Origin: Geobacteraceae bacterium
GTDB lineage: Bacteria; Desulfobacterota; Desulfuromonadia; Geobacterales; Geobacteraceae
Assembly: GCA_009773645.1 (NCBI GenBank)
Contig: WSYB01000020.1
Coordinates: 1 to 64,000, forward strand
Reading direction: 5' to 3'
Length of the DNA stretch: 64,000 bases
Both the position numbers and the translations under genes were made by a program. Of this stretch, positions 210 to 56,283 are shown one piece after another; positions within the stretch are counted from its first letter, which is position 1; each line of letters opens with the position of its first letter. The notes under the pieces are model-generated. The model ran no database searches. It saw nothing but the letters and a program-made list of their open reading frames with translations, and was not told the DNA's origin.

Positions 210-562
210 TGGTGGAGGTGGCGGGAATCGAACCCGCGTCCGAAGATCATCCACAGAAGGCGTCTACATGCTTATACCAGTTTTTGTTTTAGCTCCCTGA
301 AGCTCCACTGGCCGGGATATTCAGAGTTCGATCCTGCTAAATTTCGCCTCGGGGTCACAGGCCCTCCCCTCGGCTATCCCACTAAAATGACGATCTGTCC
401 TTCCCCGTGGGAGAGGGTCGGCAGATCGTTAGCAGGTTATTAAGCTGCTAAAGCGTAATTATAATTGTCGGCGTTTAAAAACGTCCCGGATTGTTTAACG
501 AGCCACCCGGACCTCGGCATGCAACCTTTGCTTATTACCCCCGTCGAAACCTTTACACCCCC
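210..562 (-). ncRNA. ssrA: Transfer-messenger RNA (tmRNA)
   Basis: The tmRNA rescues stalled ribosomes and tags the unfinished protein for degradation. The 5' end GGGGGTG (from 562) pairs with CACCTCC just before the encoded CCA at 212-210, forming the tRNA-like acceptor stem. The T-arm GGTTCGATTCC lies at the 3' end. The tag frame at 472-440 reads ADNYNYALAA and then stop, a normal proteolysis tag ending in ALAA. It lies directly downstream of smpB on the same strand, its protein partner, and is followed by a terminator at 141-175. Exact ends are set by the stem pairing. Confidence 0.96.
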
Positions 563-35717: not shown

Positions 35718-38402
35718 ATGTTAGCCCGAACAGTCAGGATGATCATTTCAGGCAGGCTTCCTCTCATATACGTTGCTTTTATAGCATCGACATCTTTCGC
35801 TGCCGTACCCCCTACCGTAACAACGTTAAACCCGGTTACTGAAGGAATCAGCACCCCCCTTAAGGTGGCTGCCGACTCGACAGGGAATTATTATCTTACC
35901 GACCCGCGGGGGGGCGGCATCCTGAAATACAATCAATCATGTGAACTGACCAAGGTCATAAGGACCGGGAGAAGGCCTCTGGGAATCACCGTAACTCCCC
36001 AGGGGAATATCCTTGTTGGGCAGGGTAATTATGTAAGCATTCTGGACGGCAGCGGCAATGAGATAGGCCGGCTGGGGAGCGGTGCCGGACAGTTCAAACA
36101 GGCCAATGGTATCGCCGTGGACACCACCGGCAATATCTATGTTTCCGACAGTCTGGATCACTGCGTGCAGGTGTTCGGCGCTGACGGAACCTACAAGTTC
36201 CGGTTTGGAAGCCATGGTAACCAGCCGGGACAATTCTCCCTGCCGACCGGCATAACCTATGAAAAGTCTGCCGGCCGCCTGGCGGTTGCTGACACGCTGA
36301 ATGGGCGGATCCAGTTTTTTGATCTTTCGGGCGGCTACCAGAAATCCATAGGTTCGTTCGGCTCCGGTCCCGGCAAGTTTATAGCGCCGCAGGCGGTCGC
36401 TTTCGAATACGACAAGCCCGGCAATTCCGTCTTGACCAGGATGTATGTGGTAGACAGTTTCCAGAGCAATCTCCAGGTAATAAATCCAACGGCTACAGGG
36501 ACATTCCTCGCCTTTATCGGCAGTTACGGACGCGCCCCCGGCCAGCTCACCAACCCTTCCGATGTGCTTTTCGATCGCACAAACGACAAACTGGTCGTGG
36601 TCAACAGCCTTGCCGGCAATCTGGTCCTTTACGGAGTTGACGCGAATCCAACAGTCGGCGGTACGTATCCGACGCTTACCATCGATACACCTCCGACAGT
36701 CTCCAGTGACCCATCCATCGTCTTAAAGGGAACCATGAGCACAGGCTCTGCTATTACAGCAACGGCAAACACAGGGGCGCTCCCCGGAGCGGCAAGCTAT
36801 CCGTCTTCTTCCACATGGAATCTCCCGATAACCAACCTTAAGCCGGGCATAAACCTGATTACCGTTACGGCAACCAACGGCACAGGCGAATATGCAACCC
36901 GTACCATTGCCGTCTGCCTTGTCACCGATTCGCCAACCATTACCATTAACCCGGTTATTCACCTGACCAATATCCCCAGCCAGCCTATTTCCGGAACAAA
37001 AGGGGCGGGAGACGGCATATCCGTCACAACCGACACCAACGCCGTCTCAGGAGCAGTCACGTATCCTACCGCAACTACCTGGGAAACGACAATCTCCGGG
37101 CTGGAGAGCGGAGACAATACCATTATCGCCATTGCTACAAGCAGTTCAGGAGGAGTAAGCGCGGCAACCGCCTCCATCACCCTCGACAACACTCCCCCCA
37201 TCCTTTCCCTTTCGACTATGCCCGATAACAGTTACGCCGCCACTCCGGTGCAAAACATAGCCGGTTTCGTTTCCGACCAGCACTTGGACAAAGTGCTGGT
37301 AAACGACATGCCGGCAACGTTTTCCGGTAACTTGTTCAGCAGTGCAGTAATCCTGGCAGGCGGCGCCAACGATATTAAAGTAGCTGCCTATGACTTGGCC
37401 GGAAACGTCACCGTCATTTCCCGCAAGGTCTTTTTCCGGACCGTTACCCCCCCTCTTGCCGTTATCTCCCCCTCAGACGGGGCCCAGACCAAATCAGGCA
37501 TTCTTACGCTACTCGGGACCGCAGATGCCGGCAATGCCGTTACAGTTAACGGTTTTTCGACGTATATTGATGTCAATGGCTGGAACTCCATCCTGAGCCT
37601 TGCCTCCGGCATTAATACTATCCATGTCGTCTCAAAAGGCCGGTCAGGTGAAGAACTTAGCGTGAAGCGGACCGTTATCGTCACCCCTTCCGCCCCCAAC
37701 CTGTCTATAGACACCCCCTCCCAGGACTTGGCCACCAATGAGGGAAATATGACCTTTAGCGGTACGGTGGATGCCGGAAGCGCCCTGGCTTATTCTGTCA
37801 ACGGCGTTGCTGCCCCATTGAGCCATGACAAAGGTTCATTCAGTTTCACCGTCCCCTTCACTACCGAAAAGCTCTATTCGGTGACTGTTGCGGCCACCGA
37901 CCCGTCCGGCAACATGAGCAATGCAACCCGCAATATTTTCTATGACAAAACCCCGCCAAAGCTGGCGATCAACAAGCCATCCGCCGGCACTCCCAATACC
38001 ATCAGCGGTTCCGCAGAGTCCGGAGCGGTTGCCTCGGCAGAAGACGGAGGGGAAATATTGGGAAGTGCTGTCTCCATTAACGGAGCCTGGAGCTTTGATT
38101 TAACAAACACAGGCTTTAATCCGGCCACCCTCGTGATCCGCGCCAGGGATGCCGCCGGCAACGTCTCAACCCGGATACTTTTCCCGCAAGGGGATATAGA
38201 CGGAAGCGGCGGAGAACCTGACCTCATAGACGCGCTCATGCTCATGCGCATCGCCATGAAATATGACATCCCGACGGCTCAGGATCTGGAGCGTGGCGAT
38301 GTGGCGCCGCTGATAAACGGCAAACCTCAGCCGGACGGAGTGATAAACGGGCATGACGTCATACTGGTGTTACGACGGATAATCGGCCTCGCTACATGGT
38401 AA
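35718..38402 (+). CDS. Secreted NHL beta-propeller/Ig-like protein with dockerin-like C-terminus
   Basis: An 894-residue exported protein (signal peptide to about residue 29, ending SFAAVPP). NHL propeller repeats occupy about 45-310; a typical unit reads ANGIAVDTTGNIYVSD. Several Ig-like beta-sandwich domains follow to about 820 (recurring TITVTA/DAGNAVTVNG segments with DPSGN/DAAGN loops). The last 70 residues (825-894) look like a type I dockerin: loop GDIDGSGGEPDLIDALMLM, then GDVAP...DGVINGHDVILV. Dockerins bind cohesins, so it may dock to a surface partner. GGGAGGTGCACC precedes the ATG. First of four closely spaced genes. Confidence 0.9.
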   Translation: MLARTVRMIISGRLPLIYVAFIASTSFAAVPPTVTTLNPVTEGISTPLKVAADSTGNYYLTDPRGGGILKYNQSCELTKVIRTGRRPLGITVTPQGNILVGQGNYVSILDGSGNEIGRLGSGAGQFKQANGIAVDTTGNIYVSDSLDHCVQVFGADGTYKFRFGSHGNQPGQFSLPTGITYEKSAGRLAVADTLNGRIQFFDLSGGYQKSIGSFGSGPGKFIAPQAVAFEYDKPGNSVLTRMYVVDSFQSNLQVINPTATGTFLAFIGSYGRAPGQLTNPSDVLFDRTNDKLVVVNSLAGNLVLYGVDANPTVGGTYPTLTIDTPPTVSSDPSIVLKGTMSTGSAITATANTGALPGAASYPSSSTWNLPITNLKPGINLITVTATNGTGEYATRTIAVCLVTDSPTITINPVIHLTNIPSQPISGTKGAGDGISVTTDTNAVSGAVTYPTATTWETTISGLESGDNTIIAIATSSSGGVSAATASITLDNTPPILSLSTMPDNSYAATPVQNIAGFVSDQHLDKVLVNDMPATFSGNLFSSAVILAGGANDIKVAAYDLAGNVTVISRKVFFRTVTPPLAVISPSDGAQTKSGILTLLGTADAGNAVTVNGFSTYIDVNGWNSILSLASGINTIHVVSKGRSGEELSVKRTVIVTPSAPNLSIDTPSQDLATNEGNMTFSGTVDAGSALAYSVNGVAAPLSHDKGSFSFTVPFTTEKLYSVTVAATDPSGNMSNATRNIFYDKTPPKLAINKPSAGTPNTISGSAESGAVASAEDGGEILGSAVSINGAWSFDLTNTGFNPATLVIRARDAAGNVSTRILFPQGDIDGSGGEPDLIDALMLMRIAMKYDIPTAQDLERGDVAPLINGKPQPDGVINGHDVILVLRRIIGLATW

Positions 38403-38431
38403 CAATTAAATACAAATCAAGGAGAATCGAG

Positions 38432-38956
38432 ATGGAAAAACCTCATTTATACCGACTCATCGTCTGCATTTTGACGGTGCTCATCGTTGCCGGGTGTGGG
38501 GGGGGGGGCGGTACACAAGGTGTGGCCACCCAGCCTACGACCGCTGTCCTAAAGCTTTATACGCAGAATGTATCTTCTCCTTTAGTCAGTCAATCAATCA
38601 CCGGGGTGACCCTAAAGATCAATCTCCCTGGCGGGGTTACGGTAAAGACAGACGCAGGTGGAGCGGTAAGCCCGGGAGTTATCGTCGTTGCCGGTGTCGC
38701 TGTCGGCAAGGCAAGTACATTCGCACAAATTTACACCTCCGCCACAGCCACAGCCCCTGCAACGCTGAGCTTTGCCGTGGTAAGCACGGATGCCGGCGGG
38801 TTCGAAGCAGGAGAATTCGTTACAGTAAACTGCGATATTACTCCCGGCGCCTTCCCGAAGAATGCAGATTTCACCTTAAGCGACGAAACCGTCAGCTTGT
38901 TGAATTCTCCGCCACTTGACACGATGAAAATAACGTTAACTTCGGAGATAAAATGA
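38432..38956 (+). CDS. Cohesin-like lipoprotein, paralogue of the one at 23.8 kb
   Basis: A 174-residue lipoprotein with lipobox VAGCGGG. The mature part is beta-rich: VLKLYTQ, ITGVTLKINLPGGVTV, ATLSFAVVST and GEFVTVNCDI. The series resembles the strands of a cohesin fold, whose last strands typically read G-x-(hydrophobic)-(Thr)-(hydrophobic). The identity is inference; no family match can be run here. It is placed 29 bases after a protein ending in a dockerin-like module. AAGGAGAATCGAG precedes the start at 38432, chosen over an upstream in-frame ATG because of the signal peptide and this ribosome site. Confidence 0.75.
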   Translation: MEKPHLYRLIVCILTVLIVAGCGGGGGTQGVATQPTTAVLKLYTQNVSSPLVSQSITGVTLKINLPGGVTVKTDAGGAVSPGVIVVAGVAVGKASTFAQIYTSATATAPATLSFAVVSTDAGGFEAGEFVTVNCDITPGAFPKNADFTLSDETVSLLNSPPLDTMKITLTSEIK

Positions 38957-39008
38957 AAGACCGGGTGCAGATCATCCAGTGTACCCCCCTGTTTCCCAGG
39001 AGCATCCC

Positions 39009-42000
39009 ATGAAAACCTTGGTCGTCAGAACCGTTGTCGTTATCGGATTCTGTTTGTTGCTCCCTGTCGCAGCAACCGCCATCAAGCCTCCACACGACAT
39101 AAGCAACGGCTATTCCTGCTCCAACTGTCATGCCGTTCATATGAGCTTAGGCGCCACCGGTTATACCAATGCATGCCTCAACTGCCACCGGCCGGGGGTC
39201 CCGCGGGGGGAGGGTAAGCCGTTTACCCTGGCGGACGCCGCCACCCCCTTTGCACTATTTACCGGGGCTTCAGCCGGCAGACTTTACCAGACCTCCCATG
39301 CCTGGAGCGGCAGCCAAACGGTGCCGGCGGCCGGGGCGCAACCGCCGCTCGACCCGAACCTGGTGAACACCAAAACGGTTACCGGTCTGGCCTGTCCCCG
39401 CTGCCACGACATCCACACCGCCAAGGACAAATCGCTCCTGCGGACCAAAAACGACCGGGACCAGATGTGCCTTGACTGTCACCGAGCCAGGAACAGCACC
39501 GATCACGCAAATGGGACCCACCCGGTCAACGTCAATTACACCGGCGCAGCCTCCCTGGTGCGGGTAAAGCCCGGGGAATTCAACAATCCGCCCGTGAACG
39601 GCAACCCGGCCAACCCCACGTCGGCCGCGAAACTCATCAACGGCACCATCCTCTGCACCACCTGCCATGGGGTCCACTACAGCGATTCCAACAGCGCCAC
39701 CTTTGACAACGCCACCAGCTATTACTCCCTGACCCGCTCGGCGGGGGCGCTGCTGCGGACCGACCTGCGGGGCAGCAGTGCGGACTCCCTCAACATCTGC
39801 ACCAACTGTCACGTGAAGAAAAACCACAACGCCAAGGGGCAGAACATCCAGTGCGCCGACTGCCACGGCGGTCATGTGGATTACATGCCCGACGCCGCCA
39901 ACGACCAGGAGCGCATTCCCAACGTCTATCTGGTACGGCGCTACATGAACCGTTCCACGGCCGGCGGACCGGCAACGAAGACGGTGTTTCTGCAGCGGAC
40001 CTCGGCGGCCCGCACATACGCGGATGGTGGACGCGGGGTCTGCGAAGCCTGCCATGCGGTGCCCGCAGCCATTGCCGCCCATATGACCGCGGACAACAGC
40101 GCCGCTTACTGCGGCAACTGCCACAAACATAACAACCAAAACGGTGCCTTCTCCGCCACCGGCGGGGCCTGCGATGCCTGCCACGGCCATGACGAGGCGA
40201 GCAGCAATCCTCTTGCCACCGGTCTGCATGGACCCCACATCAACAGGACCGCCAACCCGGCCCTGGGCAAGGCGCTGGGCTGCGTCGAATGCCACGCCAA
40301 GACGGTGAGCGGCAACTATGTGATCAGCAACCCGGCCATCCACGCCAACGGCTTTCTGGACTACTCGGGCGCAAAAGCCGGGCAAACCGCCGCCTGCGCC
40401 AACTTCTACTGCCACTCGGACGGCAAGGGGACCTTTGCCAATCCGCCCGCCTGGACCGCAGGTGGCAGCCTTGCATGCAACGGCTGTCACGGTACGGGGA
40501 ACGGCATCGGCTATCCCGATTACGCCAGTACAGGGGCGGGACTCCTCCGGGCCAACAGTCACGTAAAACATGTGAAGAGCGGCGCCGCCGCCTGTGACGC
40601 CTGCCATACCTACACCACCGTAAGCGGCGGCGCCATAATGAACGGCTCCACCCTCCACGTGAACAAAACCATCGATGTCACCTTCAATCCGGCCAAGGCG
40701 ACGGCGGTCTGGACGCCGGCAACCAAGACCTGCGCCACCATCTCCTGCCATGCCGGCGGCACCGCCCAGTGGGGAGGAACTCTCTCCTGCGGCGACTGTC
40801 ACGGTCTTGATGCCGGGAGCGGTAAGCCCATGGCCACCGGCCGCCATTCCGCCCATGTGAACAACGGGGCGATCCTCGGAACCAACTTCGTATGTGACGA
40901 CTGCCACGCCAAGACTGTAACGGGCGTCACCATCACCACCCCCGCCAACCACGCCAACAGCTTTGTCGACTACTCCGGTCTGAAGGCGGGGCGCAATAAA
41001 TCTTGTGCCAACGTCTACTGCCACTCGGACGGCAAGGGGACCTTTGCCAATCCGCCGGCCTGGAACTCCGGAGCTTTCCTCTCCTGCAAAGGCTGCCACG
41101 GCACGGGGAACAGCGCCGGCTATCCTGACTACGCCAATGCCGGCGCGGGACTCGCCACAGCCAACAGCCATAGTGCCCATACCGCGGCCGGCGCCGCTTC
41201 CTGCGACACCTGCCATACCGACACCACCGTAAGCGGCATCGCCATCAAGACCGGTTCCACCCTGCACATAAACCAGAGTATCGATATCGCCTTCAATCCC
41301 GCCAAGGCGGGCGCCGGCGCAGCCTGGACAGCGGGGACCAAGAGCTGTACCAATATCTACTGCCACAGTTCCGCCCCCATGGTGTGGGGGGCAACTCTTG
41401 CCGGCGACTGCACCAGTTGTCACGGCAATGACGCGCAGAGCAGCAAACCCATGAGCACCGGCAAGCACAGCAGGCACATGAACAACTACACCACCCTGGG
41501 GACAGGGAACGACTTCGGCTGCGTGGCGTGCCACGCCGGCACCGTCGCCGACAACCGCACCATCAACGGTCAGGGGCGGCATGTGAACGGCCTCAAGAAC
41601 TACTCTGGCGTGAACGCAGGCTCCATTGCCGTGGTCGGCTCGGGAAGCTGCGCCACCGTTTATTGCCACAGCACCGGCATGCAGAACAACCAGTTCTGGA
41701 ACATGACCGCCGCCACCTGGAATTCCGCCCGAACCCTTGACTGCACCGGCTGTCACGGCGGTCCGGCCCTTCCCGACGGCACCTTTGCCGCTTTCACTTC
41801 TGTCGCCGGCGAGCCCAACTACGCCAACGGCGGGGCCGGCACCCCGACCGCCAACAGCCATGCGAAACACGTGGCCGGCGCCGGGCTTGCCGACTCCACC
41901 GGCTGCGCCCGCTGCCACCGAAACACCGTGGATATGGGGATCTCCGGCAAGCTGCGCGATTACTCCAGCGCCCATCTTAACAGAAGCCGCGACGTAACCT

Positions 42001-45000
42001 TCTCCGCCGCCGTCCAGGGGAGATACAGCGCCGCAACCCAGCAGTGCGTGAGCATCTACTGCCACTCCAACGGCTCCCCCTTCGACAACCTCACCACCGT
42101 CTATAAATCCCCCGCCTGGGGGGATGCGGCGCTCACCTGCGCCTCCTGCCATGCCGACCCGAACAATGCCGATGCCTTGAGCGGCAGGCACGGCAAGCAT
42201 ACCGTCAGCGCCATCTATCTCTCCAGCTGCGACCGCTGCCATAACAACACCGTCGATGCCAGCGGGAAAATCATCGACAAGGCCCGGCATGCCAACAAAG
42301 CCAAGGACATCGCCTTCAGCAACGGCGGCAGTTACAACAACGCCACCAAGGAGTGCGCCACGTACTGCCACAGCGACGCCAGGGGCGGCACCCCCGCCGT
42401 TGCCGTGAAATGGTCCGATACCGCCACTTCCATGACGTGCTATTCCTGTCATAAGGGTAAGACGACCGACAGCACCACAGCCAACTGTACGGAAATTCAG
42501 GGAGTCTGGAGCAGCGCCAAGGGCTACTGCACCCCCGACCTGACCATGACGTCCAACGGCCATCACCGCCTGGTGGGGCCGCAGTGGGTCAGAAAATACC
42601 CCTGCTACTATTGTCATAACGCCACCATGGATAATACGGGGAATATCAAGGATAAGACAAAACACCTGAACAATACCAATGATATCGAGATGGCAACCAA
42701 ATGGGAAATCGGGAACCGGCCGAAGCCGAGCTACGATCCCGATACCAAGGTCTGCGACAATGTTTACTGCCACAGCGACGGCACCACCGACCCGGAAGAC
42801 GTCCGCCCCTTTGCCTGGACCGCTCCCAAGACCGAGTGCAACTCCTGCCACGGCCATCCGACCGGCTCCTGCTCCAATGCCGGCTGTCATGACGGGGAAG
42901 TGCACGTCGGTGATCCCACCGGCAAACTCTGGACGCTACCGGCCAAATTCGGCAATCATTCGGCCTACACCTGGCCCGTCGGTCAGGAATGGAAGGCTTC
43001 CCTCCCCATGTTCCCCAACCAGGGGGCCGGGACGGCGCGGGCCAACTCCCATGCCCGCCATGCGGAAACCGATTTCACCTGCGACCAGTGCCATGCTAAG
43101 ACCATCAGGAGCGGGGCCTGCACCACCTGCCATGTTAACGGCATTCCTGCCGGCGGCATGGGTGAAGTGGCCCACATCGACGCCGCGTTCCATGTGAACA
43201 AAAACAAGGATGTGGATTTCAGGGACGGCGGCGACTACGACCCCATCAATAGAACCTGCTCCGGCACCGCCTGCCATACCGGCGGCGTGGATCCGGTGTG
43301 GGGGGGCTCGGTCGGCAGCGCCGTGACCTGCCTCTCCTGCCACGGCATTACCGGCCCGGATGTGGATGATTACGACGCCTTCAACGGAACGCAGGGGAAA
43401 ATCAACCTGACGCAATGGGAGACGACAGGCCACGGCAGGTATTCATCGGCAGCCTATACCGGTTACTACCCCAAATCAGGGAACCCGGCCGCCAGCTTCC
43501 CCGGCAACCCCTGCTGGTACTGCCATGATAACAGCGTGATCCACAAGGACGCCGCCAATCCTTATCGATTGCGGATGCACATCCAGTATGAACGGCGCTT
43601 CGAAAAAGAGTGCGTATACTGCCACATGGAGAGAACCAATGCCGAGTGCATTGCCTGCCACGTAGGGCAGACCGAATCCCTCTCGCCGCAGGCGACCGCA
43701 AGCGGCATCGTATTCAGATTCAAAAACGGCTCCTCGGTAACCAGATATCCGACCCATACGGACGTGGTCAACTGCATAAATGGCGCAGGCTGCCATGATT
43801 CGGACAACGGCACGTTCTCCAACAGAAGTACGCACAAAGGGCATAATGCCAATGCCGGCGTCTGGACACCGGAACAGAAAGCGGACGTGAAGAACCAGTA
43901 CCTGATGATGGGGGTCTGCCTGCAGTGCCATGACGACGACAGCAGCAATCAGTGCACCAGTTGTCATATCGCACCGGCAGATAATCCGTTGAAATACTCG
44001 CTCGGCTACGACCCCGGCACCGGCTTTATCAAGCCGCGCAAGGCGAGGGCTTCGGCCGGCCATTTCGGCTACAAGCACTACCGCGCCTTTAAAAATTCAG
44101 GAGGATGGGCGAAAGACGTCGACGGCAACTACCTGGGTACCTGGAAAGGGGGCAAATTCTGCTGGGACTGCCACGACCCACACGGCGACAGCAATATCTA
44201 CATGATCCAGAAGAAGGTGGCGACCACCACAGACGGCAAGTTCGGAATGCCGAAGACCCAGGCCGTAGTCACCTTTACCGACAAGGAAAGCGGTTCCGGT
44301 TATGTGAAGAAGGTTGCGCCATTCGACGGCATCTGCAATGTCTGCCACTCGCCGGAAAGCAAGCATTTCACCAGCAATTCCGGTGACGGTCACAACATGA
44401 GCCGGCGCTGCACGATCTGCCATGAGCACCGCTTTGCCGACAGTCACGCCAACAAACAGAGCTGTGACAGCTGCCACGACAGTGAAAAGCCGATTCCAAA
44501 GCATACGGCTTTTGGCCTGCCGCGTGACTGCACCAAGTGCCACGCCGGCACCGTCGGCAAACGGATGGACATCATGGGGCAGATGAAGGCTAACTCCCAC
44601 CATGTCCAGGGGGTGGAGGTGAACAACAAACACTGCTACAAATGCCACTGGGAGGCAACCCCGGACGGGTTGATCGACAACCAGTTCCACACCGGCTACA
44701 ACTATAAGAATTACACGTCCGTAAAGAATGACGTGGTTGACCTGGTGATATACGGACCGGGCACGCGGCCGACGGTTTACCGGAATACCTCTTCTGCCGA
44801 CGGCAGGGCAACCGTCACCACGTTCCTTGCCAGCAACATGGGTACCGCCGAGGAGAGGAACGAGGTCAGCAACGTCTCCAACCACTGTCTTTCCTGCCAC
44901 AGCGACCAGAACAATGACACCGTGCCGTTCGACGACTGCAAGACTCCCCGCCAGTACGCCTGGGACATCCAGAGCATAGATGCCCGATACTCCCAGACCG

Positions 45001-46679
45001 ACACCATCACCTGGGGCAAATATCCCGGCACGGCAAATGCCGCCAAGAAGAATATCACCAAGTCCTTCTCGGCCCACGGCAACGGCGTTGCCAACGGGGG
45101 AGGATGGGATCCGGCAACCGGCCTCGATGGAAACATCCCGAATACACGGGGGGGTGTAGCCAACAAAAACGTGCAGTGCTTCGACTGCCACAATTCCCAC
45201 GGCTCCAAGGTAGTTGGGATTACCTCCAGCTACGTCACCTTCAACGGCACCTACAACGGTGCAAACCTGAAGGAGACCAAGAAGGACATGGGTGGTTACA
45301 CCGCCGACTACAAAGCCTCATCCAATACCTCGGGGGTCAATCCTTACGGCGCCGGTGCCGGCCAGTGCTTCGACTGCCACAATACCGCCATCGCCGGTAC
45401 GGCCGTGCCGACCGGCAAGACCCCGTGGGGATATGACTCAACCTTTGGCGCAACAGCGCCGATCATGGGATACAAGGACACCCCGCGCTTCGGCCAGGGG
45501 ATCAAGGCGTCCACCGCCCGCTTTACCGAGCGGGACAGCAGGAAGACGATTCTAGGCGGCCACCTGAAGGCTTCCGAACCGGCAGGCTCGCTGCCAAACC
45601 TGGCCAAGGATACCGGAACCGCCAGCAGCGGTTCACTCACCACTCTTGACGACGGCGGAAAAAACTGGATTGCAGACAAATGGAAAAACCTCTACGTCCT
45701 TTTAGGGAGCGGCAGCAACAGCGGACAGCTCCGAAAAATTACCGGCAACACGGCCACCACCCTGACGGTGGAACCGTTTGCCGCACCCGTGGCCGCGGGC
45801 GACTCCTACAAGATCGTGCCGTACTCGGCGACCGTCAACGGCTTGTGCACCCCGTGCCACGACCCGCACGGCGTCAGCCCGACGCTGGGGAGCAATCAGG
45901 CCTATGCAGTGCCGCTCCTCAAGGGAACATGGATGACCTCGCCGTACAAGGAAGATGCGCCGCCGCCAAATCCATACGGTACCGAGGCGACGGACAAGTC
46001 ATGGTCGCAATACACCAACGGTTGGGGGCAATATCCCAACGGGTATAAATTCGGAATGTATCGATCGACGGGGAACGTGCAGCCGGTCACTAAGCACACT
46101 CTCGACCGCAATACCTTCGGCACTGTGGATGGCACACCAACCGGCGCCCCGAAGAAATTTAGCGAGAACGATACGAAGTTTGCCGGGTTGTGCCTGAACT
46201 GCCACAAAAAGGAGACTCTCACCGACGGCATCAACAGGAACAACGGCGCAGCCGGTTTCAAAACCCTCGACCGCATCCATGAATCGGTCAAGGGGTGGGG
46301 TGTGAATAACGAGCACTCTTTTACCTGCTCAAAATGCCACCAGCCGCACAATTCCGGTCTGCCTAGGCTGATGCAGACTGATTGTCTGGATTACAGGCAC
46401 CGCGGAGGCAGTGTTTCCACCGGGACAGCCTGGGCGGTCGATAAGCAACGATACGGCCAGACAAGGTTCGGTTATACGAAGGGCAACGCTGGCAACGAGC
46501 ACCGCGGCTATCCCATCGGGAGCATTCTCGGCGTGCGGGACGCCAGCAATTTCACGGTACCCGAGGCGACCACAGCCTGTCATGTGGCCAGATTCAATCC
46601 GACGTATAATTCAAATCCTGCGACGATGATTAATTGGCCGGACGGCAACCTGTGGAACAACGTGACGCCATGGCCGTAA
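39009..46679 (+). CDS. Giant multiheme c-type cytochrome (57 candidate heme sites)
   Basis: A 2556-residue exported cytochrome (signal peptide MKTLVVRTVVVIGFCLLLPV, then AATA). I count 46 CxxCH sites plus nine CxxxxCH, one CxxxCH and one CxxxxxCH, that is up to 57 covalent hemes. The CxxxxCH-then-CxxCH pairing is characteristic of Geobacter cytochromes. A tandem-duplicated module lies at 40.26-41.48 kb. A non-heme stretch near residues 2195-2275 has a repeated TTLTV strand pattern. It probably conducts electrons outside the cell; the acceptor is unknown. CCAGGAGCATCCC precedes the ATG. It sits 52 bases after the cohesin-like lipoprotein and 65 before the SBBP protein. Confidence 0.95.
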   Translation: MKTLVVRTVVVIGFCLLLPVAATAIKPPHDISNGYSCSNCHAVHMSLGATGYTNACLNCHRPGVPRGEGKPFTLADAATPFALFTGASAGRLYQTSHAWSGSQTVPAAGAQPPLDPNLVNTKTVTGLACPRCHDIHTAKDKSLLRTKNDRDQMCLDCHRARNSTDHANGTHPVNVNYTGAASLVRVKPGEFNNPPVNGNPANPTSAAKLINGTILCTTCHGVHYSDSNSATFDNATSYYSLTRSAGALLRTDLRGSSADSLNICTNCHVKKNHNAKGQNIQCADCHGGHVDYMPDAANDQERIPNVYLVRRYMNRSTAGGPATKTVFLQRTSAARTYADGGRGVCEACHAVPAAIAAHMTADNSAAYCGNCHKHNNQNGAFSATGGACDACHGHDEASSNPLATGLHGPHINRTANPALGKALGCVECHAKTVSGNYVISNPAIHANGFLDYSGAKAGQTAACANFYCHSDGKGTFANPPAWTAGGSLACNGCHGTGNGIGYPDYASTGAGLLRANSHVKHVKSGAAACDACHTYTTVSGGAIMNGSTLHVNKTIDVTFNPAKATAVWTPATKTCATISCHAGGTAQWGGTLSCGDCHGLDAGSGKPMATGRHSAHVNNGAILGTNFVCDDCHAKTVTGVTITTPANHANSFVDYSGLKAGRNKSCANVYCHSDGKGTFANPPAWNSGAFLSCKGCHGTGNSAGYPDYANAGAGLATANSHSAHTAAGAASCDTCHTDTTVSGIAIKTGSTLHINQSIDIAFNPAKAGAGAAWTAGTKSCTNIYCHSSAPMVWGATLAGDCTSCHGNDAQSSKPMSTGKHSRHMNNYTTLGTGNDFGCVACHAGTVADNRTINGQGRHVNGLKNYSGVNAGSIAVVGSGSCATVYCHSTGMQNNQFWNMTAATWNSARTLDCTGCHGGPALPDGTFAAFTSVAGEPNYANGGAGTPTANSHAKHVAGAGLADSTGCARCHRNTVDMGISGKLRDYSSAHLNRSRDVTFSAAVQGRYSAATQQCVSIYCHSNGSPFDNLTTVYKSPAWGDAALTCASCHADPNNADALSGRHGKHTVSAIYLSSCDRCHNNTVDASGKIIDKARHANKAKDIAFSNGGSYNNATKECATYCHSDARGGTPAVAVKWSDTATSMTCYSCHKGKTTDSTTANCTEIQGVWSSAKGYCTPDLTMTSNGHHRLVGPQWVRKYPCYYCHNATMDNTGNIKDKTKHLNNTNDIEMATKWEIGNRPKPSYDPDTKVCDNVYCHSDGTTDPEDVRPFAWTAPKTECNSCHGHPTGSCSNAGCHDGEVHVGDPTGKLWTLPAKFGNHSAYTWPVGQEWKASLPMFPNQGAGTARANSHARHAETDFTCDQCHAKTIRSGACTTCHVNGIPAGGMGEVAHIDAAFHVNKNKDVDFRDGGDYDPINRTCSGTACHTGGVDPVWGGSVGSAVTCLSCHGITGPDVDDYDAFNGTQGKINLTQWETTGHGRYSSAAYTGYYPKSGNPAASFPGNPCWYCHDNSVIHKDAANPYRLRMHIQYERRFEKECVYCHMERTNAECIACHVGQTESLSPQATASGIVFRFKNGSSVTRYPTHTDVVNCINGAGCHDSDNGTFSNRSTHKGHNANAGVWTPEQKADVKNQYLMMGVCLQCHDDDSSNQCTSCHIAPADNPLKYSLGYDPGTGFIKPRKARASAGHFGYKHYRAFKNSGGWAKDVDGNYLGTWKGGKFCWDCHDPHGDSNIYMIQKKVATTTDGKFGMPKTQAVVTFTDKESGSGYVKKVAPFDGICNVCHSPESKHFTSNSGDGHNMSRRCTICHEHRFADSHANKQSCDSCHDSEKPIPKHTAFGLPRDCTKCHAGTVGKRMDIMGQMKANSHHVQGVEVNNKHCYKCHWEATPDGLIDNQFHTGYNYKNYTSVKNDVVDLVIYGPGTRPTVYRNTSSADGRATVTTFLASNMGTAEERNEVSNVSNHCLSCHSDQNNDTVPFDDCKTPRQYAWDIQSIDARYSQTDTITWGKYPGTANAAKKNITKSFSAHGNGVANGGGWDPATGLDGNIPNTRGGVANKNVQCFDCHNSHGSKVVGITSSYVTFNGTYNGANLKETKKDMGGYTADYKASSNTSGVNPYGAGAGQCFDCHNTAIAGTAVPTGKTPWGYDSTFGATAPIMGYKDTPRFGQGIKASTARFTERDSRKTILGGHLKASEPAGSLPNLAKDTGTASSGSLTTLDDGGKNWIADKWKNLYVLLGSGSNSGQLRKITGNTATTLTVEPFAAPVAAGDSYKIVPYSATVNGLCTPCHDPHGVSPTLGSNQAYAVPLLKGTWMTSPYKEDAPPPNPYGTEATDKSWSQYTNGWGQYPNGYKFGMYRSTGNVQPVTKHTLDRNTFGTVDGTPTGAPKKFSENDTKFAGLCLNCHKKETLTDGINRNNGAAGFKTLDRIHESVKGWGVNNEHSFTCSKCHQPHNSGLPRLMQTDCLDYRHRGGSVSTGTAWAVDKQRYGQTRFGYTKGNAGNEHRGYPIGSILGVRDASNFTVPEATTACHVARFNPTYNSNPATMINWPDGNLWNNVTPWP
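40260..41477 (+). repeat. Tandem duplication of a 609-base cytochrome module
   Basis: Two successive copies of a 203-codon unit inside the cytochrome gene. The stretch ACTGCCACTCGGACGGCAAG and the following CCTTTGCCAATCCGCC recur 609 bases apart (40431 against 41040). Each copy holds CxxCH, CxxxxCH, CxxCH, CxxCH and further sites in the same order. A third, more diverged copy follows to about 42.1 kb. Confidence 0.75.
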
Positions 46680-46744: not shown

Positions 46745-49700
46745 ATGAGCCAATATTGTAAATTTTATCTGAGGAGACTGACGGGCGCCAGCCGGTGCAG
46801 CCATCTCCCTCGGTCGCAATGCTCCCTGTTCCTGTTGACACTGATTACCATTCTCGCATGTGCGGTTGCGGCGTTTGCCAAAGGGGGCGACCCTGTCGGC
46901 TCGTTCCCGTCGGTTGACGCCCGGGCGGGGCTGCAGTATTCCAAGGCCATGGCAGTCGATGCGGCAGGCAACATCATTGTCGTCGGCTACACCGGTACCA
47001 ATGGCAATGATTACCAGGTGGTCAAATTCAAGGCGGACGGTTCAGGAACGGCGTGGGCACCGGTCTCCTTTGGAGGCTCCGGTGCTGATGTGGCAACGGC
47101 GGTGGCGGTCGATTCCGCCGACAACATTATTGTGACCGGCTACACATGGAATGGCGCAGATTACGATATTCACACCATCAAGTACAGCGGCGCAGACGGT
47201 TCGGTACTGTGGGAGCACACCTTCGACGACGGTGCAGCAAACGGCAACGATTACGCCACGGCCATCGCCGTTGACGACGCCAATGACATATACGTAGCCG
47301 GCTATTCCGCCAACGGAACAAAGCAAGATGATTTCCTGGTTATCAAATACCTTCCGAGCGGCCCTACGGCCAATGCACCAGCATGGCAGGAACTGTACGA
47401 CGACGTGGCCTACCCCAATAACAACAACCGTATCCTGGCCATCGCCGCCGGCGTGGGCGGCATTGCCGTGACCGGCTACTCGTCCAAGGGAGGGGCGGAT
47501 TTCGACATTCTTACCCGCAAATACGGCTTTGACAAATCGCTTGTCAGGGAGTGGCGCTATTCTTCACCAGGGAGCCGCGACGACCGAGGGATAGCCGTGA
47601 AGACGGATTCCGCAGGGAATGTGATAGTCACCGGCTTTCTCACGAACGCTTCGAATAATTCGGACATCTGCACCGCTAAATACGATCCTGCCAGCGATAC
47701 GCCGGTCTGGGAAAAGTTTTACGACGGCAACGGCAATGATGAACCGAAGGGTTTGTGGGTCGACAGCGCGGGAAACGTGTATGTTACCGGCTACACTTCG
47801 ACCCTTGCCGGCAACCAGGATATTTATACCGTCCGATACAGCAGCACCCCCGGCCCTCTGGTCTGGGAAGCCATTTTTGACTCCGGAAACGGCTCTACCG
47901 ACATTCCCGCCGCCATTGTGGTGGACGATGCGGCGGATGGCGGGGTATTCGTCACCGGCTATACCACAATCTCAAACAATGAAGATTTCCTTACCCTCAA
48001 ATACAAAAAGGACAATGGAGTCCTCCTCTGGGAAAAGAGCTGGAATGGCAGCGACAACAACAACGACCGGCCCGTTGGTATCGGCCTGTCGTCCCGGAAT
48101 GTTTGCGTGGCCGGCTGGTCCGACGCCGATGCCACCGGCTACGACTTCCAGGCAATGAAGTACGACTTCGGGGCGCTCAACGCCCCCTCCAACCTGACGG
48201 CCAGCGCCGCTTCCAATACCTCCATAACCCTTACCTGGGCCGACAACTCCACAAACGAAGACAAATTCGTCATCCAGAGGAAACTGGGTGAAAACGGGAT
48301 TTTTGCCGACATAACGACAGTCCCTCCGCTGCTCTCCCCCGACACCACCACTTATACCGACACCGGACTCACCAGCAACAGCTATTATTATTACCGGATC
48401 CGTGCCTACAACGCCACCAACAACGATTCCTACAACAGCAATGAAGCGCATGCCCTGACCAAGGTGGTGAGCTACGATGCTCCATCATGGAATTATCTGT
48501 ACAACAGCGCAGATAACCGGGAAGACATTGCTACGGCCATTACGGTCGGCTCCGATAACCATCCGGTAGTGACCGGCTATAGCGACCTGACGGAAGAAGG
48601 AGTTGAAGGAGCGTATTCGTTTGACTACATGACCATCAAACTTGATCTCTCCGACAAATCGATCAAATGGAAGGCGCGCTACGACAGCGGTGACGGCGGC
48701 ACCGACCAAGCCGCCGGCGTGGTGCTGGACAGCAACAGCGACGTGCTGGTCACCGGTACGGCCTACCTCTCCGGTGGGACGGACAAGAGCGATGACCTCT
48801 ATACCATAAAATTCCAGACCTCCACCCATACGGATCCGAACACTAATCCGCCATTCATGTGGGATCACCAGTATGGTACGCAAGCTGGCATCGACATCGC
48901 CACTACGATCACGATGGCCAAGGACGGTTCCAATAACAGCGTTGTCATCGGCTATGGAAGAAACGCCTCGAACAACGACGATACCTTCATCATCAAATAC
49001 AATCAGAACGGCACCCGACCATGGGCGCCCATGGTCTACGACAGCGGCAGCCACGACCATCCCACCGCGGTTGTCTTCGACGCTGCCGGCAACATATTCG
49101 TAACCGGTTACAGTTATGCAACCACAGCGGATCCCGCCGGCAGTTACGACTGGTTCACCGCAAAGTACAACGGCGCCACCGGTGCGCTTATCTGGTCGGA
49201 CACCTTTAACAGCGGCTACGGCGACGAGAAACCGCTCTCCCTGGATGTGGACACCGCGGGTAACGCCTACGTAACCGGCTATGCCACGAATGCCCAAGGG
49301 GAGTACGTTTTCTATACAGTCAAGTATGACGGCGCGACGGTTCCGGCAGGGAATCGGAGAATCTGGGAAAAATCCTTCAATTACCCCGGCTTCGATGCCG
49401 AGGCCGCGGTAGTCAAGGTAGACCCGATCGACGGCGCGGTGGTGGTCGCGGGCACGGCCTATGTGAGCGCAACCGACAGCGATTTTCACCTGATCAGGTA
49501 CAACCCGGCTGACGGCACGTTGACGGCAGGCGGCGGCAAACCGTTCTGGGAGATAAACTTCGACCGGCCGGCGACTTACGACTATGTCACAGCCATGACG
49601 ATGGACTCCTCCGGCTACATTTATGTAACCGGCAATACCCGTGGCGGCCCCGATACCGATCCTGCCTTTGACGGCACCTCCGACATCATGTCCCTCATTT

Positions 49701-52700
49701 ACGACTATGAGGGGACCTTCCTGGGGGCGATGACCTATGACGGGACCGGCAGGAAAGACGAAACGAAGGCGATCACCGTCAACTACCAGGGAGAAGCGTT
49801 TGTGGCCGGTTATTCAAGGAACGCGACCAATGCGGACTATGTGGTGCTGAAGCAGACAAACGGCTACCTCCTGGTTCCCGCCCCTTTCACGGGGAGTTCC
49901 CAGGCAGATTACAGCAAGGTGGACCTGAGCTGGCAACATAACAACGCCAGTGCGACGTTCATCATCGAACGGACCCCCGGGCCGGCAACTCCCGTCAGCA
50001 CCTGGACCGTGATAGCCACGCCCGGTGCCGGCGCCACGAGCCACACGGACACTTTACTGACCGCCGATACCAACTATTGTTACAGGATCAATGCCATTTT
50101 AAGCAGCCTTCCTTCCCGGAAGACCCCTCCAACGTGCGTCACCACCAGACTCCCGAAACCGACCCTGACCACCCTGACGGTGGACTCCACCAGTCAGATC
50201 ACGGTGAACTGGGATCAGGTAACGGGCAACACCGGATACAAGGTTGAGCGTATAATAGGCGCGGGGGCATGGGCCGATTTAGCCACCAAAGCAGCCGGAG
50301 AGAATTCCCATGTAGATCAAGGCCTTACCCCCGGCACCACCTACTCCTACCGGGTCAGCACCAACAGTGCCGCCGGATATTCACTGCCAGGCAACGAGCC
50401 GAGCGCCATAACCAAACCGGTGGCTCCGACATTGAACGCGCCAACCAGCATCACCAATACCCAGATGGTTCTGGGGTGGAACGCCGTCACCGGTGCGGCC
50501 ACCTATACGCTGCAATACAAGCTGTCGGGCGGCGTCTACGCCAACTTCCCGGCCTGCACCAACATAGCCGGCACCACGTGCACCGTTACCGGCCTTACGG
50601 CACCGAATGCATACAACTTCCAGGTCAAGGCCGCCAATGCCGGTGGAGATTCCGCCTGGAGTAATGAACAGAGCGGCACGGCGGCGCTGGCCGTGCCGAC
50701 ACTTACCACCCCCATCGCAGTTGCTACCATCACCAGTACCCAGATGTATGTGGCCTGGACCAACCCTGTTGTCAGCGGGGCGAATGTAACCTCCTATACC
50801 CTGGAATACAAGGAAGGGGTCGGCGGCTCGTATGTCGCTTCCGGCTGTCCGGCCAACACCAACCTTTTTTGTACGGTTACCGGATTGACGCCAAACAGGA
50901 CCTATTATTTTCATGTCAGGGCCAACAACGCCTCCGGAAGTTCAAACTGGAGCACAGAAGTAAATGCAAAGACGCTTCTGCCCACGCCGACTTTGAACAG
51001 CGTTACCGGTGGCGCGTTGAAGGTCGATCTGGTCTGGACCGGCGTGGCCGAAGCTACGGGGTATACCGTTCAGCAATCGGCCTGCACCGACAGCACCAGT
51101 CCAACTACCTGCAGAGGCGGAGCTGCGTATGCAGCATGGGGCAACATAGCAACGGGCGTTACATCACCATACTCCGCAACCGGCCTGGCAGCGGGAACCA
51201 ATTACAAGTACCAGATAATCGCCACTGTTGCCGGCAATTCATCCGCCGCCAGCAACGTCCTGCATGCCTGGACGAATCTCGCCGCCCCGACCCTTACCGT
51301 TACACCGGCGAGCTCCACGGCGCTCACTCCCGGCTGGGACGCGCAACCGGGTGAAACCAACTATACCGTGGAAGTCAGCACCACCGGAATCGGTGGTACG
51401 TATACCGCGATCCCGGCCGCGACCGGGCTTGCGACAAATGTCATTACCTATCCACATACCGGCCTCACCCTGAATACCCAATACTGCTATCAGGTAAAGG
51501 CATACAGCACCGAAGCGACTCCTCCGCCCGCTGTCTACAGCACCCCGCAGTGCAAGACCACGCCACCGGTTGAACCGACTCTAAATGAACCAACCGTTGC
51601 ATCTACCACCCAGATAAACCTCTCCTGGAGTCAGGTTGCCAGCAATACCGGCTACGAGATTGAACGGTGCATAACAACCGACAACAATCAACCCCTAACC
51701 CATCCTCTGGGCGCCTGTATGAACCTGGCACCGACAGTTGCCCAGGATACCACCTCCTTCAACAACACGGGATTGACCGCCGGCAATACCTACAGGTACC
51801 GGGTGCGGGCCTTGTATAACGCTTCGGCCGACTATACCGCGTGGAGCAACGCCTACTGGGTCACTACCACCCCACCGGCGCCGACCATGACCGCCCCCAC
51901 GGCTGCTTCCACAACCACAACCCAGTTAACCCCCACGTGGAATGATGTCAACGGAGATAACGGCTATAAGCTGTACTGGAAAGCACGATCAGGAGCAGAC
52001 TGCACCGCCGGGACCTGGAACGGCCCCATAACCCAGGCGATTAATGTAATAACCTATGACCATGCCGGCCGCACCCCCGGAACCTTTTACTGTTATTATA
52101 TCACGGCAAACGGACCTTCCGGACCTCCAGTAACACCGGATTCCGCCGCCAGCAATGTAGTGTCGCAGACGACGAAACCTTCTGCGCCGGCCCAGCCAAC
52201 CTTAAGCAGCATTACCGCTTCGAGTATCACCGTGACGTGGTCGCCGAACGTCACCGGCAACATTGGTTACAATATCGAGCGCAAGACCGGCGCTGGCGGC
52301 ACTTGGGGTTCCGTTGGCACGGTGGGCACTGATGTGACAACGTTAACCAACAACACCGGCCTTAGCCCCGGCACGCTGTATTATTACCGGGTCAGTGCCA
52401 ACTCCGCCGGCGGCTATTCAGCTACCAGCGCCGAACAGTCGGCCACCACCACTCCGGCAATTCCCTCAATTACCGCAACTGCCGTATCCGATGACGAGAT
52501 CGACGTATGCTGGCCGTTGGTCTACGGCGCCACCAGTTACAAGGTGGACCGCAAAACGGAAAGCGGGGGGACATACGGCCAGATTGCCAATCCGAGCGAG
52601 AGCTACAGCACATCGTACTGCGGCGAACCCTACCCTACCGTCAGCTGTCCGACAGCTACACCGGTAGTTTACTGTTACCAGGACACGGGGCTGACGGAGA

Positions 52701-53104
52701 ATACGACATATTACTACCACCTGCATTCGGCTAACGGCACCGACTCCCCGGAAAGCAACGAAAAAAGCGCGACGACCCTGAGTATCCCCAATCAGAATCT
52801 GACTGCCACCGCCGTCAACTCCTTTAAAGTCAAACTTGACTGGACCCCCATCGTCTGCGTGCCCAATCCGTGCGACAACCCGGACAGTTTCGAAATCGAA
52901 CGACAGGTACGAGACGGAAACTGGGTGAGCCTCAAGACCGTGGATGGCGGCACCTTGACCTTTACCGACTCCATCAGCATCGACCCGAACAAACAGTACA
53001 GTTACCGGGTACGGTCGGTCAAGGGAGCGGATAAATCACCGTACAGCAATACGGCAACGGTCTCCGCAGACGTTTACCAGACGGGGGACGGCACGTGTAA
53101 TTAG
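46745..53104 (+). CDS. Secreted SBBP beta-propeller/fibronectin type III giant protein
   Basis: A 2119-residue exported protein. A polar stretch of about 20 residues precedes the hydrophobic signal core (LFLLTLITILACAVAAFA). Two SBBP (beta-propeller) blocks follow: about 55-475 (units such as AVDAAGNIIVVGYTG) and 576-1040. Fibronectin-III-like domain 1 sits between them, and about eleven more follow to the end, with SITLTWADNSTN and TGYKVER motifs. It has no heme motif. Such proteins usually form extended adhesive or structural stalks. The start at 46745 is set by GCGGAGGCAATTCG; earlier ATGs in frame lack that spacing. It is the last gene of the secreted-protein operon. Confidence 0.88.
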   Translation: MSQYCKFYLRRLTGASRCSHLPRSQCSLFLLTLITILACAVAAFAKGGDPVGSFPSVDARAGLQYSKAMAVDAAGNIIVVGYTGTNGNDYQVVKFKADGSGTAWAPVSFGGSGADVATAVAVDSADNIIVTGYTWNGADYDIHTIKYSGADGSVLWEHTFDDGAANGNDYATAIAVDDANDIYVAGYSANGTKQDDFLVIKYLPSGPTANAPAWQELYDDVAYPNNNNRILAIAAGVGGIAVTGYSSKGGADFDILTRKYGFDKSLVREWRYSSPGSRDDRGIAVKTDSAGNVIVTGFLTNASNNSDICTAKYDPASDTPVWEKFYDGNGNDEPKGLWVDSAGNVYVTGYTSTLAGNQDIYTVRYSSTPGPLVWEAIFDSGNGSTDIPAAIVVDDAADGGVFVTGYTTISNNEDFLTLKYKKDNGVLLWEKSWNGSDNNNDRPVGIGLSSRNVCVAGWSDADATGYDFQAMKYDFGALNAPSNLTASAASNTSITLTWADNSTNEDKFVIQRKLGENGIFADITTVPPLLSPDTTTYTDTGLTSNSYYYYRIRAYNATNNDSYNSNEAHALTKVVSYDAPSWNYLYNSADNREDIATAITVGSDNHPVVTGYSDLTEEGVEGAYSFDYMTIKLDLSDKSIKWKARYDSGDGGTDQAAGVVLDSNSDVLVTGTAYLSGGTDKSDDLYTIKFQTSTHTDPNTNPPFMWDHQYGTQAGIDIATTITMAKDGSNNSVVIGYGRNASNNDDTFIIKYNQNGTRPWAPMVYDSGSHDHPTAVVFDAAGNIFVTGYSYATTADPAGSYDWFTAKYNGATGALIWSDTFNSGYGDEKPLSLDVDTAGNAYVTGYATNAQGEYVFYTVKYDGATVPAGNRRIWEKSFNYPGFDAEAAVVKVDPIDGAVVVAGTAYVSATDSDFHLIRYNPADGTLTAGGGKPFWEINFDRPATYDYVTAMTMDSSGYIYVTGNTRGGPDTDPAFDGTSDIMSLIYDYEGTFLGAMTYDGTGRKDETKAITVNYQGEAFVAGYSRNATNADYVVLKQTNGYLLVPAPFTGSSQADYSKVDLSWQHNNASATFIIERTPGPATPVSTWTVIATPGAGATSHTDTLLTADTNYCYRINAILSSLPSRKTPPTCVTTRLPKPTLTTLTVDSTSQITVNWDQVTGNTGYKVERIIGAGAWADLATKAAGENSHVDQGLTPGTTYSYRVSTNSAAGYSLPGNEPSAITKPVAPTLNAPTSITNTQMVLGWNAVTGAATYTLQYKLSGGVYANFPACTNIAGTTCTVTGLTAPNAYNFQVKAANAGGDSAWSNEQSGTAALAVPTLTTPIAVATITSTQMYVAWTNPVVSGANVTSYTLEYKEGVGGSYVASGCPANTNLFCTVTGLTPNRTYYFHVRANNASGSSNWSTEVNAKTLLPTPTLNSVTGGALKVDLVWTGVAEATGYTVQQSACTDSTSPTTCRGGAAYAAWGNIATGVTSPYSATGLAAGTNYKYQIIATVAGNSSAASNVLHAWTNLAAPTLTVTPASSTALTPGWDAQPGETNYTVEVSTTGIGGTYTAIPAATGLATNVITYPHTGLTLNTQYCYQVKAYSTEATPPPAVYSTPQCKTTPPVEPTLNEPTVASTTQINLSWSQVASNTGYEIERCITTDNNQPLTHPLGACMNLAPTVAQDTTSFNNTGLTAGNTYRYRVRALYNASADYTAWSNAYWVTTTPPAPTMTAPTAASTTTTQLTPTWNDVNGDNGYKLYWKARSGADCTAGTWNGPITQAINVITYDHAGRTPGTFYCYYITANGPSGPPVTPDSAASNVVSQTTKPSAPAQPTLSSITASSITVTWSPNVTGNIGYNIERKTGAGGTWGSVGTVGTDVTTLTNNTGLSPGTLYYYRVSANSAGGYSATSAEQSATTTPAIPSITATAVSDDEIDVCWPLVYGATSYKVDRKTESGGTYGQIANPSESYSTSYCGEPYPTVSCPTATPVVYCYQDTGLTENTTYYYHLHSANGTDSPESNEKSATTLSIPNQNLTATAVNSFKVKLDWTPIVCVPNPCDNPDSFEIERQVRDGNWVSLKTVDGGTLTFTDSISIDPNKQYSYRVRSVKGADKSPYSNTATVSADVYQTGDGTCN

Positions 53105-55547: not shown

Positions 55548-56283
55548 GGGACATAATACCCATTATTCTGGCTTTACTGGTCTCCCTGCCGGTTTTATCT
55601 TCAGGTCTCGCCCCGTCAGGCTTTCAATTTTTTCAACAAATTGCTCATCACCTGCCGGTCGGCCTGTGCGCGTTGCCCGTCGAAGCAGTTCCGATTCCGC
55701 TCCTTCCTCTGAGCTCAAAAACTCCCGCCAATCCGTGATCAGGCCTAGAAGCGTCCGGTCTTTTACCAGCGGATCGTGGTCAACTAGTCCGCAATGAAAG
55801 CGGGCGCTTGACCACGGATACTCCCACGGCGTCTTGACCATGCCGGCAGCAACCGGGTTCCATGCCACATAACGGACAGCTGCGAGCAGGTGTTGCCGGT
55901 CGAGCACGCAGGAGCCGAATCGCCCCTGGAAAAGGTATCCGCGAACCCCCTGAGTGAAGTTCTTCATGCGTGTGTAACGCCGATGGGCTTCTCCGATACC
56001 TCGGGCAAGTGATGTCTCACTACGAGGCAAGGCAATGAAATGGACGTGATTCGTCATGAGGCACCAGGTTAAAATGTCCAGGCCAAAACGAGCAGCCTCT
56101 TCGGACAAAAAGCGAAGGTAGGCGTAACGGTCCTCGTCGGAGTGAAAGACATCCATAGAGCGGACGCCGCGCTGGGTGACATGATGCGGAAAGCCAGGGA
56201 CTACAATGCGTGAGATACGAGCCATGGCGGGATATTATGAGAGAATATTCATAAAGTCAAGACGAAATTGGTATTATGTCCCC
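55548..56283. mobile_element. REP-associated transposase unit with terminal inverted repeats
   Basis: GGGACATAATACC at 55548-55560 and its inverse GGTATTATGTCCC at 56271-56283 flank the transposase gene. This is the usual layout of a RAYT gene with REP-like sequences. A direct repeat of the right-hand motif follows. There is no target-site duplication that I can confirm. Confidence 0.7.
55563..56225 (-). CDS. REP-associated tyrosine transposase (RAYT, Y1-Tnp)
   Basis: A 220-residue HUH-superfamily transposase. The HUH motif appears in MTNHVHFIALP; the tyrosine region is near AHRRYTRMKNFTQG. The opening MARISRIVVPGFPHHVTQRG and FQGRFGSCVLDRQHLL are typical of RAYTs. These enzymes bind and nick REP sequences rather than moving a classical insertion sequence. 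The frame is intact, and flanking inverted GGGACATAATACC motifs support recent activity or maintenance. Confidence 0.88.
   Translation of the reverse strand: MARISRIVVPGFPHHVTQRGVRSMDVFHSDEDRYAYLRFLSEEAARFGLDILTWCLMTNHVHFIALPRSETSLARGIGEAHRRYTRMKNFTQGVRGYLFQGRFGSCVLDRQHLLAAVRYVAWNPVAAGMVKTPWEYPWSSARFHCGLVDHDPLVKDRTLLGLITDWREFLSSEEGAESELLRRATRTGRPAGDEQFVEKIESLTGRDLKIKPAGRPVKPE

Follow-up and report, generated by a model that had tools for sequence, protein, structure and literature searches.

A giant cytochrome of the CxxxxCH/CxxCH family in a Geobacteraceae genome: modules, gene partners and spacing of its heme-attachment sites

A single reading frame in a genome of the Geobacteraceae encodes 57 candidate heme-attachment sites that differ in the spacing between their two cysteines. 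Heme counts frequently omit long-spaced motifs, and the locus raises the question of what kind of protein this is, how many of its sites hold heme and what such a protein would do. We examined a window of 64,000 nt (the whole stretch of DNA analysed, on contig C46 of genome G000), together with homologs from the same and other genomes. The features of the locus are collected in Table 1.

Table 1. Features of the cytochrome locus, with positions in the window
Feature	Position	Strand	Basis or remark
Upstream partner: NHL/six-bladed propeller, Glucodextran_B and Ig-like domains	35718..38402	+	Family profiles; signal-peptide-like N-terminus
Small lipoprotein-like protein	38396..38956	+	Lipobox-like LIVAGC (by eye); overlaps end of NHL gene
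Giant multiheme c-type cytochrome, 2556 aa	39009..46679	+	Reading frame, CH count and TIGR01904 match
N-terminal (N) module, residues 1-400, 10 CX2CH sites	39009..40208	+	Module searches
Repeat region, residues about 425-1180, three-site CX2CH-CX4CH-CX2CH	40281..42548	+	CX3CH replaces CX4CH once
Six-site repeat unit, copy 1, residues 425-628, 204 aa	40281..40892	+	Repeat alignment
Six-site repeat unit, copy 2, residues 629-837, 209 aa	40893..41519	+	Repeat alignment
CX3CH site CATYCH	42354..42371	+	Homologs mostly CX4CH at same site
C module, residues 1180-1880, 20 sites	42546..44648	+	Module searches
CX5CH site CINGAGCH	43773..43796	+	Homolog spacings 2, 3, 4, 5, 7, 9, 11
C-terminal (Ct) module, residues 1881-2556, 6 CX2CH, lone C2459 and lone C2524-H2525	44649..46676	+	Alignments
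Conserved lone Cys C2459	46383..46385	+	Tail alignments
Lone Cys-His C2524-H2525	46578..46583	+	Nearest upstream Cys more than 24 residues off in this protein
Downstream partner: SBBP/delta-60 propeller and fibronectin type III (FN3) repeats	46745..53104	+	Family profiles

Reading frame, attachment sites and family

The cytochrome frame is unbroken; its length is counted from the ATG at 39009, and it is also open from an upstream GTG at 38979. Its N-terminal stretch, judged by eye, is signal-peptide-like, and with the signal cut assumed at residue 26 the computed mature mass is ~268 kDa, to which 57 bound hemes would add ~35 kDa. An antisense ORF of 1211 aa (39270-42905, minus strand) was regarded as a shadow ORF of the coding strand. 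The protein contains 58 CH dipeptides, distributed over 46 CX2CH, nine CX4CH, one CX3CH and one CX5CH motifs and one lone CH. This recount reproduces exactly the tally of motifs given in the original prediction, from whose list of sites the lone C2524-H2525 was missing. When the residues of the protein were shuffled 1000 times, each of the spacings 2-5 occurred on average 0.23-0.28 times, with a maximum of 3, so that 46 CX2CH and nine CX4CH lie far above chance. Composition alone could yield a single CX3CH or a single CX5CH by chance; both fall on sites that are conserved in homologs.

Numbering from the ATG and naming each site by the position of its second Cys, we found that between residues 468 and 1254 every third site is a long one (468, 580, 671, 785, 886, 1018, 1120 and 1254), the CX3CH of site 1120 filling one CX4CH slot of the pattern. 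The period is three, instead of the near-alternation of long and normal sites that had been described. Beyond 1254, further long sites occur at 1293, 1422 and 1595 (the CX5CH), which agrees with the earlier observation that they end after about residue 1600.

Profile searches placed the protein in a known family. The NCBIfam model TIGR01904 (CxxxxCH/CxxCH domain c-type cytochrome) matched nine stretches with 230.3 bits against a cut-off of 27, and Pfam PF09698 matched seven stretches with 103 bits against a cut-off of 21.7. Alignment of the nine TIGR01904 copies showed a CX4CH followed by a CX2CH inside each domain, one copy having CX3CH. Judged by its sequence, the protein belongs to the Geobacter CxxxxCH...CxxCH family as a large member, and the long sites, first regarded as an oddity, are the defining feature of this family. 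Its multiple CXnCH sites, above chance and kept by selection, are those of a multiheme c-type cytochrome. Neither of the two domain names led to a relevant paper, nor was the word megacytochrome found, in the literature searched, outside which most subscription journals lie.

The domain is widespread. In the genome of origin, 82 matches at E ≤ 0.001 were spread over more than 10 frames, and 21 other frames with at least four sites carry 335 CX2CH, 4 CX3CH, 80 CX4CH and 6 CX5CH, a tally that covers 14 stretches fetched around domain matches and includes some overlap between small and larger frames. Relatives were present in 38 of the 58 genomes searched, the genome of origin included. They also occur in records of Geobacter, of Geotalea and of other groups, some of them labelled Nitrospirae; 165 loci were confirmed, of which 80 were kept, and metagenome bins may carry wrong labels. 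One relative of 2706 aa (L073:2187-10304, plus strand, contig C34 of genome G051) has 68 sites, namely 46 CX2, 2 CX3 and 20 CX4, and is followed downstream by another cytochrome frame, truncated by the contig end. Very large multiheme cytochromes have also been published from ANME-2c and 'Agromonas oligotrophica' (86 motifs each; PMC9012536, PMC7096707), Desulfuromonas soudanensis (69) and Thermincola ferriacetica (58; PMC7096707). The protein had been placed, provided that all sites bind heme, among the largest single-chain conductors; this holds for its size only, although it is not the largest, and record size is ruled out by the 68-site relative and by the published 69- and 86-motif proteins.

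When the whole protein was compared with PDB chains by phmmer, no match was obtained at E ≤ 0.01, and at this threshold there is no sequence relationship to the solved filament subunits OmcS, OmcE and OmcZ. Weak profile matches of the C-terminal part to octaheme nitrite reductase (E 0.006) and to reaction-centre cytochromes (E 0.03 or worse) were not accepted as kinship.

We also recorded eight ResB/CcsA-type heme-synthase pairs in the genome of origin (contigs C9, C10, C45, C33, C47 and C71). Neither ResB nor CcsA was matched on the contig of the window. Four of the eight pairs lie within ~260 bases of multiheme frames with CX4CH sites, a proximity that suggests dedicated maturation of those cytochromes. 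Near one pair, on contig C10, a frame of 859 aa (L062:885-3461, plus strand) carries six CX5CH in a regular pattern (CLNTAGCH or CFNNTLCH type); because of its overlap with a second cytochrome frame, a frameshift may be involved.

Modules and partner genes

The end modules of the protein recur elsewhere as separate units. Of 58 genomes of the order, 32 contain the N module, and its matches mostly stop near residue 395-400. In the giant cytochrome it is followed by the three-site repeats, whose two six-site copies share 63.5% aa identity and retain all six sites. The C module contains long sites at (numbered by first Cys) 1249, 1288 and 1417, all CX4CH, and 1589, the CX5CH, and the Ct module terminates in ...WPDGNLWNNVTPWP. 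These two modules co-occur in proteins of mostly 1500-1800 aa; Ct also exists without C, for instance in ~600-aa frames with eight sites. Six such cytochromes (L137, L143, L153, L157, L162 and L163) consist largely of the Ct module, and in several of them the His of an HRG motif is gone and the lone C and CH are retained. In the genome of origin, L051 and L053 (contigs C67 and C73) are near paralogs, 78-83% identical to the C-terminal part; both are cut at contig ends, and such repeated cytochrome genes are probably where the assembly breaks. AlphaFold2 modelling of residues 1357-2556 with 33 sequences gave a pLDDT of 40, and a pLDDT of 47 was obtained for the last 279 residues when 69 sequences were used. 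The sole confidently predicted part of the larger model was a putative small beta domain (residues about 2197-2273, window 45597-45827) inserted between heme sites, which is absent from many aligned homologs.

The cytochrome gene and its neighbours, that is, the NHL gene, the small lipoprotein-like gene and the SBBP/FN3 gene, are tightly spaced on the same strand. The SBBP/FN3 frame is open from 46634, and the ATG at 46745 precedes a signal-peptide-like stretch. The small protein matched no family, and the loci searched contained no relative of it. Elsewhere in the window we noted an IS200-like transposase domain (Y1_Tnp; 55563-56225, minus strand) near the cluster and a tmRNA gene (210-562, minus strand; tag ADNYNYALAA).

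Counting unique frames with enough flanking room to judge, we found an SBBP/FN3 gene downstream of 44/44 frames with a full C module, compared with 5/54 frames that lack one, and an NHL gene upstream of 12/17 N-module frames, compared with 0/70 frames without this module. The five N-module frames that lack an NHL gene include L065, the nearest full-length relative. Three related frames combine N and C modules (L065, L071 and L147, the last at only 29% in the N module), and only L071 has both partners beside it. The genome of origin also contains the separate forms, one with an NHL gene (L054) and three with an SBBP gene (L051, L052 and L053, the first and last truncated by contig ends).

On the simplest reading of this arrangement, two cytochrome-partner pairs would have been fused to give the giant cytochrome. 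Fusion, and not fission, is inferred because many separate forms exist. One source lineage would be the 10-site N module, whose gene usually follows that of an NHL-propeller protein; the other would be the C-terminal module, in every case followed by the gene of an SBBP/FN3 propeller protein. The three-site repeats lie between the two. We therefore regard the protein, with good though incomplete confidence, as a secreted multiheme c-type cytochrome of giant size that belongs to the CxxxxCH/CxxCH family and probably arose by fusion of two lineages elsewhere encoded by separate genes. Moreover, that each end module is strictly tied to a propeller gene of its own suggests a docking target for these giants, an idea that we did not find stated in the portions of the literature covered by our search. 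The ties of the N module to NHL genes and of the C module to SBBP/FN3 genes, the proposed fusion and the conserved lone C and CH of the tail are new here.

Probable heme on long-spaced sites and possible heme on the C-terminal Cys and Cys-His

Comparison with the nearest relative (genome G001) gave a dN/dS of 0.087, which shows that the cytochrome is under purifying selection. In this pair 51 of the 57 sites could be aligned, and C-C-H was kept at all 51 (42 CX2, 1 CX3, 7 CX4 and 1 CX5). The original prediction had left it unsettled whether the long-spaced sites bind heme. If only the CX2CH sites did, the protein would hold 46 hemes and the long-spaced Cys pairs would be disulfides. Alignment of 44 C-region sequences (the window and 43 homologs) showed Cys-His at all 22 sites of residues 1100-1960, the sole exception being a TH at site 1120; at site 1550 there was one odd CX1 reading. 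Among 432 unique domain copies, gathered by a search that favours copies with an intact motif, the His of the long site was present in 432 and the first Cys in 431, making the long site as invariant as the CX2CH site.

The spacing itself proved exchangeable. In the 43 homologs, site 1293 has spacing 4 in 26 sequences, 2 in 14, and 3, 6 and 12 in one each; site 1374 has 2 in 37 and 4 in 6; and site 1595 has 4 in 24, 3 in nine, 2 and 7 in three each, 9 in two, and 5 and 11 in one each, the spacings 9, 11 and 12 being less certain as they rest on the nearest upstream Cys. On a quick tree of the C-region sequences, six sites together required no fewer than 12 switches between CX2 and longer spacings, and no fewer than 31 changes of spacing overall. 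Repeated exchange of CX2CH for longer spacings at the same site means that long-spaced motifs should be counted, and sites 1293, 1374 and 1595 are places where the spacing could be varied experimentally. There is also a precedent in MmcA, in which mass spectrometry located heme on CXXXCH and CXXXXCH (PMC11024163).

The supply of non-motif His, as candidate second ligands, gave a divided answer. The C region has 23 fully conserved non-motif His for 22 sites, of which 17 are CX2CH in the window, and each six-site repeat copy has six in the alignment. Across 104 frames, with length included in the regression, the number of non-motif His rose with CX2CH sites (0.73 ± 0.11) and not with long sites (-0.02 ± 0.11), and in 410 six-site blocks it fell from 8.9 His without a long site to 6.6 with two, both of which speak for 46 hemes; at least six His were nevertheless present in 88-95% of the blocks. 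Since the regression showed no effect of long sites and the block analysis was ambiguous, His book-keeping was dropped as a proof of heme on these sites. Overall, the invariant His, the recurrent exchange of spacings and the MmcA precedent outweigh this one protein-level test, which gave no support: most or all long sites likely bind heme, and a total of 46 hemes with disulfides at the remaining sites is very improbable.

The lone C2459 and C2524-H2525 raise a related question. Both were retained in 18/18 sequences, the window included, and a lone C and a lone CH occurred in 82/82 tails chosen without requiring them (83 unique tails minus one unrelated match, one row being read by eye). The gap between them spans 25-105 residues in relatives and 64 here; no other Cys lies inside it in 59 of 77 measured tails, and flanks and gap vary around a constant C and CH. 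Such a pattern could mean that the two jointly hold one further heme across a long loop, that is, that C-X(25-105)-CH is a split attachment site of the family's C-terminal module whose halves are joined by a freely varying loop. In the last 279 residues of 69 aligned tails, four invariant non-motif His match three CX2CH plus the lone C/CH site, and long heme loops are known from OmcZ (14 residues; PMC9473688) and from MccA, whose CX15CH site has a dedicated lyase (PMC7096707). A disulfide together with a His that ligates another heme would, however, give the same pattern, and gaps of 25-105 residues are longer than any heme loop in the sections of the literature examined. Moreover, the first lone Cys is present in 68 of the 69 tails, an alignment in which conservation of the CH is partly by construction, and the exception, L124, has kept its CH; the model of this region is too poor to judge. 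We therefore treat heme at the split site as a tentative possibility, somewhat doubtful on balance. Were it true, motif counts would miss hemes, the number here being 58 and not 57, and, with spacings drifting from 2 to 11 at other sites, the folded position of Cys and Cys-His, and not a fixed short motif, would set heme attachment; substrate recognition by heme lyases would need a new view that admits loops of tens of residues. A second conserved Cys pair, C1160 and C1174 (Cys in 14 of 17 homologs, gaps in three), is without His and more simply explained as a disulfide.

Proposed role and comparison with known systems

Established here are the modular layout, the genes that accompany the modules, the preservation of the sites, the action of purifying selection and the switching of spacing at homologous sites. 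In the function that we propose, nearly all 57 sites would carry covalent heme with two His ligands, the hemes would form one chain, and the protein would take part in extracellular electron transfer from a place beyond the inner membrane, a role and location suggested by the family and the organism group. The two propeller proteins would anchor or dock its ends. The hemes might instead mainly store electrons in the periplasm or matrix, with no wire between docking partners; repeat number differs freely among large relatives, and family profiles matched no anchor or porin among the four genes of the cluster, as storage would allow. The end modules, each strictly linked to a propeller gene, point to fixed docking at the ends, and we consider storage unlikely.

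Among known systems, the ANME-2c, 'Agromonas oligotrophica', Desulfuromonas soudanensis and Thermincola ferriacetica giants are likewise single chains with dozens of heme motifs; the ANME-2c protein, unlike this one, bears an S-layer domain (PMC9012536, PMC7096707). OmcZ, OmcS and OmcE, the nanowire cytochromes, are exported multiheme proteins of Geobacter, and OmcZ includes one heme site with a 14-residue loop (PMC9473688). The MccA-type system has its dedicated lyase (PMC7096707), whereas no ResB or CcsA match was obtained on contig C46, which carries the giant cytochrome. MmcA of Methanosarcina acetivorans also mixes CXXCH, CXXXCH and CXXXXCH, all heme-bearing, but has seven hemes in 476 aa (PMC11024163) as against 57 sites in 2556 aa. 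The Geobacter CxxxxCH...CXXCH cytochromes share the order of CX4CH followed by CX2CH, found here in nine domain copies above the cut-off; compared with them, the giant is unusually long at 2556 aa, appears to unite two lineages in one chain and includes CX3CH and CX5CH variants.
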